Positions 28,061 through 34,710 of a stretch of DNA of 64,000 bases are shown here, in pieces. The stretch's first letter is position 1, and each line of letters opens with the position of its first letter. The stretch lies in contig NZ_JAAGKM010000001.1 of the NCBI RefSeq assembly GCF_019308355.1, positions 1 to 64,000 on the forward strand, given 5' to 3'. The stretch comes from Empedobacter falsenii. GTDB lineage: Bacteria; Bacteroidota; Bacteroidia; Flavobacteriales; Weeksellaceae. The notes below the pieces were generated by a model that was not told the DNA's origin, made no database searches, and saw only the letters and a program-made list of their open reading frames with translations. The position numbers were made by a program, and so were the translations under genes.

Positions 28061-28063
28061 TTG

Positions 28064-28136
28064 TGACCTGGCTGGGGCTCGAACCCAGGACCCCAACATT
28101 AAAAGTGTTGTGCTCTACCAACTGAGCTACCAGGTC
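28064..28136 (-). tRNA. tRNA-Lys(UUU), copy 5 in transcription order
   Basis: A 73-base cloverleaf: acceptor GACCTGG/CCAGGTC, discriminator A, anticodon stem CAACA/TGTTG with loop CTTTTAA (anticodon TTT) and T-loop TTCGAGC. CCA is not encoded. It is identical to the four other copies, lies closest to the terminator and is the last unit of the 124-bp tandem array. Confidence 0.97.
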
Positions 28137-28187
28137 TCCATTTTGGAGTTGTTATTGTTTTTAGACTTCTCAATAACTAGAAGTTTG

Positions 28188-28260
28188 TGACCTGGCTGGG
28201 GCTCGAACCCAGGACCCCAACATTAAAAGTGTTGTGCTCTACCAACTGAGCTACCAGGTC
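28188..28260 (-). tRNA. tRNA-Lys(UUU), copy 4 in transcription order
   Basis: It is identical in all 73 bases to the copy at 28064, with anticodon TTT. It is preceded and followed by the near-identical 51-bp spacers. Confidence 0.97.
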
Positions 28261-28311
28261 TCCGTTTTGGAGTTGTTACTGTTTTTAGACTTCTCAATAA
28301 CTAGAAGTTTG

Positions 28312-28384
28312 TGACCTGGCTGGGGCTCGAACCCAGGACCCCAACATTAAAAGTGTTGTGCTCTACCAACTGAGCTACCAGGTC
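28312..28384 (-). tRNA. tRNA-Lys(UUU), copy 3 in transcription order
   Basis: The 73-base sequence is the same as its neighbours, anticodon TTT, in the middle of the tandem 124-bp array. Confidence 0.97.
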
Positions 28385-28435
28385 TCCATTTTGGAGTTGT
28401 TACTGTTTTTAGACTTCTCAATAACTAGAAGTTTG

Positions 28436-28508
28436 TGACCTGGCTGGGGCTCGAACCCAGGACCCCAACATTAAAAGTGTTGTGCTCTACCAACTGAGCT
28501 ACCAGGTC
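28436..28508 (-). tRNA. tRNA-Lys(UUU), copy 2 in transcription order
   Basis: It is identical to the other four, anticodon TTT. A separate promoter lies directly upstream at 28526-28555, so copies 2-5 can be transcribed without copy 1. Confidence 0.97.
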
Positions 28509-28525
28509 TCCGTTTTTTCGGACTG

Positions 28526-28555
28526 CAAATATACGATTATATCTGAGTTTACAAA
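28526..28555 (-). promoter_or_regulatory. Promoter before tRNA-Lys copy 2
   Basis: On the minus strand a -33 TTTG (28552-28555), an 18-bp spacer and a -7 TATATTTG (28526-28533), 17 bp before the tRNA. Confidence 0.65.
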
Positions 28556-28604
28556 ACGAAAGACGTTTTTATTTTTTTATATAAAAAAGAACGTTTTGAC
28601 TAAG

Positions 28605-28677
28605 TGACCTGGCTGGGGCTCGAACCCAGGACCCCAACATTAAAAGTGTTGTGCTCTACCAACTGAGCTACCAGGTC
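28605..28677 (-). tRNA. tRNA-Lys(UUU), copy 1 in transcription order
   Basis: It has the same 73 bases and anticodon TTT as the other copies, but is separated from copy 2 by an unrelated 96-bp spacer. It is therefore the older, non-tandem member and has its own promoter. Confidence 0.97.
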
Positions 28678-32719: not shown

Positions 32720-34024
32720 TTATTTATTCATTAAATCTTCGATTTCTTCTGCTTCTAACGGAATATTTTGCATCAAGTTGAAAGGCTTTCCTTCTTTTTG
32801 AATTACATAATCATCTTCCAAACGAATTCCAAAACCTTCTGCAGGAATATAGAATCCTGGCTCGTTTGTGAAAACCATTCCAGCCACAAAATCATCAGTC
32901 AATAAACCATAATCATGTGTATCTAATCCCATGTGATGAGACGTTCCGTGCATCATGTATTTTTTGTAAGCTGGCCAAGCTGGATCTTCGTTTTGTACAT
33001 CTGCTTTATCCAACAAACCTAAACCTAACAATTCAGAAGTATAAACTTTTCCTAATTCTTCGTGATATTTGTACCAATTATTTCCAGGAACTAACATTGT
33101 TTCCGCTTCTTTTTTACAACGTAAAACCGCATCATATACTTCTCGTTGACGTTTTGTATATTTTCCATTAACCGGAATTGTACGTGACATATCTGATGAA
33201 TAATTTGCATATTCTGCAGCAACATCAAACAAAATCAAATCACCATCTTTACATTCTTGGTTATTTTGAATATAATGTAACACATTTGCATTATTTCCAG
33301 ACGCAATAATTGGCGTGTATGCAAAACCTTTCGAACGATTACGTAAAAACTCATGAACAAACTCAGCTTCGATTTCGAATTCCCAAACTCCAGGTTTTAC
33401 GAAATTTAAAATACGACGAAAACCTTTTTCTGTGATATCACACGCTTGTTGAATCAAAGCAATTTCTTCCACTTCTTTTACAGAACGTAAACGTTGCAAA
33501 ATAGGATTTGAACGTAAATAAGTATGTCCAGGATAATCTGCTTTCAATTGTTTTACAAAACGATCTTCGCGCGTTTCTACTTGTGGCGCTTCTGTTACGC
33601 GATAATGCTCGTTTTTATTTACATAAACATTATCCGCTTCTACCATCAATTTACGTAAAACATTTGGTAAATCTTGTAACCAAAGTACAGTTTTGATTCC
33701 AGAAACTTCTGTTGCTTGAGCTTTTGATAATTTTTCTCCTTCCCAAACTGCAATATGATCGTTCGTTTCACGAACAAATAATACTTCTTTATATTTTGGA
33801 TCGTAAGCATCAGGGAAAATCAATAAAATAGATTCTTCTTGATCAACTCCAGATAAATAAAAAATATCACGATGTTGCGCAAATGGTAACGTAGAATCTG
33901 AAGAAATTGGATAAATATCGTTAGAATTGAAAATAGCAAGAGAACGAGGTTTCATTGCTTTTACAAATTTCGCTCTGTTCTTTACGAATAATTCGCTTGG
34001 AATAGGATTGTATTTTGTTGTCAT
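32720..34024 (-). CDS. Aminopeptidase P family protein (M24B)
   Basis: 434 residues. The N-terminal creatinase-like domain is followed by the pita-bread metallopeptidase domain. Metal ligands are visible in LFDVAAEYANYSSDMSRT (two Asp), HGTSHHMGLDTHD (His), TNEPGFYI (Glu) and GIRLEDDYVI (Glu). Such enzymes remove an N-terminal residue before proline in the cytoplasm. A -7 box TAAATTTG at 34050-34057 lies between the gene and the upstream hairpin, so it probably has its own promoter. Confidence 0.94.
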   Translation of the reverse strand: MTTKYNPIPSELFVKNRAKFVKAMKPRSLAIFNSNDIYPISSDSTLPFAQHRDIFYLSGVDQEESILLIFPDAYDPKYKEVLFVRETNDHIAVWEGEKLSKAQATEVSGIKTVLWLQDLPNVLRKLMVEADNVYVNKNEHYRVTEAPQVETREDRFVKQLKADYPGHTYLRSNPILQRLRSVKEVEEIALIQQACDITEKGFRRILNFVKPGVWEFEIEAEFVHEFLRNRSKGFAYTPIIASGNNANVLHYIQNNQECKDGDLILFDVAAEYANYSSDMSRTIPVNGKYTKRQREVYDAVLRCKKEAETMLVPGNNWYKYHEELGKVYTSELLGLGLLDKADVQNEDPAWPAYKKYMMHGTSHHMGLDTHDYGLLTDDFVAGMVFTNEPGFYIPAEGFGIRLEDDYVIQKEGKPFNLMQNIPLEAEEIEDLMNK

Positions 34025-34072: not shown

Positions 34073-34154
34073 AAAAAAAAGGAAAACCCTCGCAGAAACG
34101 AGGGTTTTAACCTTAACCAACCTAAACCTATGAAAAAGCCATTAGCCTTTTATG
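34073..34154 (-). ncRNA. Candidate small RNA, about 82 nt
   Basis: A minus-strand promoter (34159-34189) predicts a start near 34154. The transcript would have a short 5' hairpin (AAAAG pairs with CTTTT around GCTAATGG), an unpaired stretch of repeated GGTT (GGTTTAGGTTGGTTAAGGTT, 34109-34128), then a 10-bp GC-rich hairpin (AAAACCCTCG with CGAGGGTTTT, 34083-34108) followed by eight T. No good ORF lies in it. The aminopeptidase gene downstream has its own -7 box, which favours a free-standing RNA over a leader. Confidence 0.6.
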
Positions 34155-34158
34155 TTGA

Positions 34159-34189
34159 CAAATGTAAGCTACTTTTTTTAAACTGCAAA
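34159..34189 (-). promoter_or_regulatory. Promoter of the candidate small RNA
   Basis: On the minus strand a -33 TTTG at 34186-34189, an exact 19-bp spacer, and a -7 TACATTTG at 34159-34166, the best form of the Bacteroidota promoter. Confidence 0.7.
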
Positions 34190-34285
34190 TTTTTTTTAAA
34201 AAAAGTCAATATTTTTTTAACGTCAATATGATAAAACGATAATATTCAACAAATAAGCTATCTATAAAAAATCAATAATTATTCA

Positions 34286-34362: not shown

Positions 34363-34710
34363 ATGACACATTACGAAACTGTTTTCATTTTGACTCCCGT
34401 TCTATCTGATTCTCAGGTAGAGGAAGCAGTTAATAAATTCAATGACTTTGTTACTGCTAACGGTGGTGAAATCGTAGCAAAAGAGAACTGGGGCTTAAAA
34501 AAATTAGCTTACCCAATTCAAAACAAAAGAAATGGATTCTACCACTTAGTAGAATTTAAATCAGACAATAACGAGTTAGTTTCTCAATTAGAAGTTGCTT
34601 ACAAACGTGATGAGCGTGTAATCCGTTTCTTAACTGTGAAATTAGACAAACACGGTATGGACTGGGCAGAAAAACGTAGAACAAAATTAAAGTCTAACTC
34701 TAACAAATAA
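34363..34710 (+). CDS. rpsF: 30S ribosomal protein S6
   Basis: 115 residues with the S6 ferredoxin-like fold: [20 protein letters not shown] at the N-terminus, the central [20 protein letters not shown] and the third strand [11 protein letters not shown]. It binds 16S rRNA in the platform together with S18, whose gene follows after 8 bp. It is the first gene of the S6-S18-L9 operon, behind a well-formed promoter. Confidence 0.97.

Follow-up and report, generated by a model that had tools for sequence, protein, structure and literature searches.

A conserved, multi-copy small RNA of Empedobacter and its relatives likely pairs over the start codons of surface-protein mRNAs, with ompA as the best-supported candidate target

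Next to the pepP gene of Empedobacter falsenii, a short minus-strand element probably encodes a trans-acting small RNA (sRNA) of a Weeksellaceae sister family, which would block translation initiation without a protein of RbpB type; its best-supported candidate target is an mRNA encoding an outer-membrane protein of the OmpA family. The element lies within positions 1 to 64,000 of contig NZ_JAAGKM010000001.1, and this whole stretch of 64,000 nucleotides is hereafter called the window. From sequence comparison, we have high confidence that this sRNA gene is conserved and free-standing and belongs to a multi-copy family; it is likely that the RNA pairs over start codons of surface-protein mRNAs, and ompA as its main target is supported, not proven, by comparison across three genera. 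Base-pairing sRNAs are familiar from Proteobacteria; to our knowledge, they are hardly charted in Flavobacteriales, where the classical chaperone partners are lacking. A literature search found no study of sRNAs in Empedobacter.

The predicted sRNA of about 79 nt extends on the minus strand from about 34154 to 34076, its 5' end placed from the promoter and its 3' end from the terminator, and scores 88.4 bits with our covariance model R1. The promoter (34159-34189, minus strand), read from the sequence, comprises TTTG at 34189-34186, a 19-nt spacer, and TACATTTG at 34166-34159. On the same strand are found a possible 5' hairpin, AAAAGGC-UAAUG-GCUUUUU (34151-34133), recognized from the sequence and the comparison of copies; the conserved seed CUUUUUCAUAGGUUUAGGUUGGUUAAGG (34138-34111), delimited by core invariance, start-region preference, and ompA complementarity; the G/U-rich GGTT stretch (34128-34109), read from the sequence; and an intrinsic terminator hairpin, AAAACCCTCG-TTTC-TGCGAGGGTTTT (34108-34083), identified from the sequence and from compensatory changes and followed by CC and a tail of eight T (34080-34073). 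A sequence-only reading of this DNA had named the minus-strand promoter, the 5' hairpin, the GGTT stretch, the GC-rich terminator hairpin, and the eight T, and all of them lie where it had placed them. Two neighbors are not part of the sRNA, i.e., the aminopeptidase P-type gene pepP downstream (32720-34024, minus strand; a block conserved in orthologues), which has a TAAATTTG box of its own past the sRNA terminator, and the divergent gene rpsF for ribosomal protein S6 (34363-34710, plus strand). An inverted repeat, ACTTTTTTTAAA / TTTAAAAAAAGT, flanks the TTTG promoter element at 34171-34206 and possibly reflects just A/T runs.

Because the promoter consensus by itself is near chance in this AT-rich 64-kb window (5 found versus 3.2 expected), the single sequence is only suggestive and conservation must decide; the promoter that had been called textbook thus has its elements in place, but the consensus alone is not significant. 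One terminator was found in 700 bp against 0.3 expected, and the region folds better than its shuffled versions (z = -2.4). The GGTT stretch had also been described as unpaired. A G/U-rich stretch is indeed present, but its unpaired state is uncertain, since part of it pairs with the 5' segment when the RNA is folded by itself to minimum energy. The 5' hairpin at 34151-34133 may partly sequester the anti-start segment, and alternative folds exist. Searched with Rfam at gathering scores, the 64-kb window yielded five tRNAs and nothing else; weak Rfam matches at the sRNA locus (PyrR, rnk leader, and others) were discarded as terminator-driven. Five tandem tRNA-Lys(TTT) genes with identical Rfam scores, the first four about 124 bp apart, are located at 28063-28677 on the minus strand.

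Conservation of the locus in related genomes was evident from a search with a 121-base query, which found it in 13 of 13 further genomes from this GTDB genus, with 85-100% identity and E values down to 5e-58, and also recovered a Moheibacter locus; the seed and terminator, whose conservation had been proposed as a check on the sRNA, are kept in all of these. The genus as sampled includes Empedobacter, Faecalibacter, and Chishuiella, and the sRNA adjoins rpsF in each of the 13 sister genomes. In five genomes (L017-L021), rpsF adjoins the locus and pepP was not found there, while in Moheibacter the locus adjoins pepP and not rpsF; the locus is therefore independent of both neighbors. Together with the pepP box past the terminator, this supports the proposal of a free-standing regulatory sRNA, and on this comparison the element is a free-standing transcription unit with its own predicted promoter and terminator.

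Alignment of 29 copies from several genera revealed an invariant core, UUUUCAUAGGUUUA-GUU-GUUA (in DNA, TTTTCATAGGTTTA-GTT-GTTA), and the promoter box TANNTTTG precedes most aligned copies at a constant distance. Compensatory changes were seen in 9 of 9 terminator pairs. The structure had a covariation score of 0.475, compared to 0.243 ± 0.018 for shuffles, while slid pairings reached no more than 0.18. The 5' hairpin is present in nearly all copies in a shifted register, with 79.5% of cells paired, and its covariation is partial, with changes on both sides in 2 of 6 pairs.

The sRNA is also not alone in its genome. Using model R1 and pattern searches, we identified at least four sister copies of the same layout, bringing the total to at least five: C6 (54954-55038; 81.9 bits), adjoining sigma-factor-like and succinate dehydrogenase cytochrome-like genes, C33 (near 158604-158540), C14 (7021-7091), and C9 (32966-33055). 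A partial copy, C38, carries part of the seed at the end of a prophage-like gene, and a further match of model R1, C95:13297, was rejected, as it has no terminator and looks coding. The sister copies keep the anti-AUGAAAAA part of the seed and vary the part reading the 5' UTR, and so may divide targets among themselves. At least four copies are present in Moheibacter, including three spaced 150 bp apart, and the sRNA model matched eleven times in G039, a genome from another family of the same order, where CUUUUUCAUAGUUUAAAUUAGUUAGG or a close variant stands ahead of differing terminators (L147, L250-L256). Upstream of the promoter, the Moheibacter copies L038, L089, and L098 have an operator-like palindrome, ATACCAAGATCTTGGTAT or close variants, which was not seen in those copies read from the genus of the window.

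These observations bear on two readings in which the locus would not encode a trans-acting RNA. It is very improbable that the element controls pepP in cis, as a leader or attenuator with a regulated terminator whose read-through would yield pepP mRNA: pepP does lie downstream on the same strand, behind what could be a long conserved leader with a terminator, but it has its own promoter box past that terminator, L017-L021 keep the locus without an adjoining pepP, and the sister copies precede unrelated genes. Scarcely credible is a plus-strand mRNA for a small gene that starts at AACCTAAACCTATGAAAAAGCC and precedes rpsF; although ATGAAAAAGCC resembles a good start and opens a 33-codon frame, this frame is not kept, with sister copies and orthologues giving 4-41 codons with unrelated ends, and the compensating hairpin and T tail fit transcription of the minus strand.

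We turn to what the predicted trans-acting sRNA may recognize. Its conserved core complements AACCUAUGAAAAA, which consists of the start codon, the flanking bases before it, and the Lys-Lys codons after it, and the seed CUUUUUCAUAGGUUUAGGUUGGUUAAGG complements AACCUAUGAAAAA and also A/C-rich sequence that precedes start codons. From the GGTT repeats, pairing with AACC-type sequences close to start codons had been proposed, and comparison supports this, but the most conserved part, UUUUUCAUAGG, starts just upstream of the GGTT stretch and covers the start codon itself. Among 389 start regions, from the window plus 400 kb of its own genome, the seed showed a preference, in that 10.0% of the genes pass a threshold passed by 5% of flanks; with shuffled seeds 3.8 ± 1.5% of genes pass, and none of 100 dinucleotide shuffles reached the 10.0% of the real seed. 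This preference is mostly due to UUUUUCAU, as 8-23 of 100 shuffles do as well when UUUUUCAU is held fixed. In this prediction, start regions of SusC/RagA and other TonB-dependent receptors rank as background.

The best-supported candidate to emerge from target prediction is ompA; neither this target nor the sister copies had figured in the sequence-only reading. The 13-mer AACCUAUGAAAAA falls on only one protein-coding start in its own genome, that of an OmpA-family outer-membrane gene (product P0001, 461 aa; Pfam OmpA, E = 3e-19), and AACCTATGAAAAA occurs three times there, i.e., antisense to the window sRNA, antisense to the sister copy C33, and at the ompA start. Of the 14 genomes of the genus, 12 have AACCTATGAAAAA at the start of ompA, and the two without an exact match keep UACCUAUGAAAAA or AACCUAAUGAAAAA at that position. 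Sixty-five sites in the 14 genomes include about 33 sRNA loci, by reading, and the 12 ompA starts, and the sole other recurrent long coding site seen among them occurs twice. The start of ompA is conserved at 98% from -5 to +8, which is unremarkable in itself because the rpsF start is similarly conserved (91-95% over this region; 91% from -5 to -1).

For the target ranks, genes were called as simple open frames in samples of about 460 kb (own genome), 400 kb (Moheibacter), and 360 kb (G031). In its own genome, ompA leads all 389 start regions when contiguous complement is the measure (13 nt versus 10 for the next gene) and ranks just 33 of 389 by energy. The Moheibacter ompA start differs in sequence (UUAACCGACCCAAACAACAAUCUAUGAG), and by energy it ranks 1 of 353 with the orthologous seed, at -25.5 kcal/mol, and 9 with an array seed; in G031, ompA comes first among 277 start regions with one copy (-24.3) and thirteenth with the other. 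These ranks overstate the case somewhat, because the metric was chosen after the fact, and ompA had already been selected in Empedobacter when the Moheibacter and G031 tests were made. In relatives without a copy of this sRNA type, the likely ompA start mostly pairs weakly, at about -7 to -15 kcal/mol, with the exception of G034, which has no sRNA yet shows strong ompA pairing at -20.6. No ompA pairing was seen with the copy tested from G039, which has eleven.

Based on these data, we propose that the segment at 34138-34111 would pair with mRNA over the start codon, UUUUUCAU against AUGAAAAA, while AGGUUUAGGUUGG would pair with the A/C-rich 5' UTR just upstream of it, and that this pairing would block translation initiation. 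The mRNA of the OmpA-family outer-membrane protein would be the best-supported target, other secreted proteins and lipoproteins beginning with Met-Lys-Lys would likely be minor targets, and the sRNA would act without an RRM protein of RbpB type, absent from the genus. That the outcome is repression we infer from where the pairing would lie and from the case of FopS, discussed below.

Two other modes of action were weighed against this proposal. A trans-acting sRNA for which ompA is not the main target is on the unlikely side; it would act broadly on AUGAAAAA-starting mRNAs of secreted proteins and lipoproteins, or on one unsampled mRNA. The origin of the general start-region preference mostly in UUUUUCAU and the many AACCTATGAAAAA and AACTACTATGAAAAA sites at starts of differing secreted proteins agree with broad action, but the recurrence of ompA in 12 of 14 genomes, against 2 for the next coding site, and its first rank in two further genera, with one copy each, speak for ompA. 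Considerably less probable is a protein sponge, in which the repeated GGUU would titrate an RNA-binding protein rather than pair with mRNAs, as might be suspected from the G/U-rich repeats and from the binding of RbpB by Bacteroides FopS (PMC11697453); the genus has no RRM_1 protein, and the invariant part includes an anti-start CAU that a GGUU sponge would not need.

Comparison with known sRNAs identified FopS as the closest known relative of the predicted ompA-pairing sRNA, closer than Rfp18. In B. thetaiotaomicron, FopS comprises 14 sRNAs built of a 5' seed and a terminator; Bacteroides genomes have 12-15 copies, and the family represses susC translation at the start codon, antagonized by the RRM protein RbpB (PMC11697453). 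Both it (RF04319) and the window sRNA have a housekeeping-type promoter, a seed followed by a terminator, and pairing over start codons, which is predicted here; both are multi-copy, with several FopS paralogues per genome and at least five copies in the genome of the window and 11 in G039. The two share partial, in-register similarity over seed and terminator, UUUUUCAU-G--UUAG-U--UUAAGGUUAA. Scored with the RF04319 model, the window sRNA reaches 26.4 bits, compared to a gathering cut-off of 56 that no relative among 40 genomes passed; nevertheless, orthologues of the window sRNA and array members recur among the best 35 RF04319 matches in these 40 relatives, by our estimate far more often than random terminators would. 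Unlike FopS, the window sRNA has an extra 5' hairpin and a minimum-energy fold pairing part of the seed, its likely target is ompA rather than susC, with susC-type starts predicted not to be special, and its genus is without an RbpB-type RRM protein. No RRM_1 protein was found in its own genome, the 13 sister genomes, or Moheibacter; such a protein is present in 22 of 60 relatives, and G031 has both it and the sRNA. The window sRNA thus resembles FopS in design but departs from it in three of the features tested and is not to be filed as FopS; its likeness to FopS may reflect common descent or convergence on AUGAAAAA starts.

Rfp18 of Flavobacterium psychrophilum pairs through its third stem-loop with metalloprotease mRNAs (PMC9723704). 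Like the window sRNA, it is a conserved, free-standing sRNA of the same order with proposed pairing to mRNAs of surface or secreted proteins, but its anatomy, compared by published description, differs in that third stem-loop. Flavobacterium-like genomes (g26; L201-L213) also have an sRNA-like locus, sometimes twice in about 320 bp, in which the GGUU element resembles the window sRNA in having a 5' hairpin, UUUUGGUUUUGGUUAGUUAAA, and a terminator, scoring mostly 36-40 bits with model R1, but differs in a seed without CAU. These loci share a conserved upstream block, CAACAAAGTAATAACAAAACCTTAACAGC. In Escherichia coli, MicA, CyaR, and RseX target the start regions of mRNAs encoding OmpA or other outer-membrane proteins; they are Hfq-dependent and, as far as known, unrelated to the window sRNA, and the comparison is by analogy only.

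The family offers a testable sRNA-target pair, the window sRNA and ompA, and connects the sRNAs of flavobacteria with the FopS family of Bacteroides. Because the genus keeps the sRNAs without an RRM protein, while most other Weeksellaceae sampled have the protein and no strong copy, it provides a natural test of the need for RbpB. AUGAAAAA is a usual beginning of signal peptides here, and we tentatively suggest a Bacteroidota-wide system, in which sister sRNAs with a shared anti-start core (UUUUUCAU versus AUGAAAAA) and varying next 10-15 bases might control surface and secreted proteins through recognition of their start sites; FopS-susC would be one branch, and in Weeksellaceae the main target would be an OmpA-type porin, controlled without an RRM chaperone.

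Matches on plasmids were short, none spanning most of the query, and the viral contigs searched held no exact copy of the core. Five Bacteroides phages matched and were considered as carriers of an sRNA; this was rejected, as in the two inspected the match is confined to the start of a phage gene and no terminator is present. In Bacteroides fragilis phages (L128, L129; about 1501-1523), a 21/23 seed match lies opposite the beginning of a small phage gene, in antisense, and we take it to be a target site or a chance match rather than an sRNA. Some genomes have arrays of three to five copies of another sRNA type (UUUUUUAUAGUAGUUUAGGUUGGUUA) (L041, L043, L044; L325, L329, L335); a matching start, AACUACUAUGAAAAA, recurs at the starts of similar secreted proteins of about 257 aa in several genomes.
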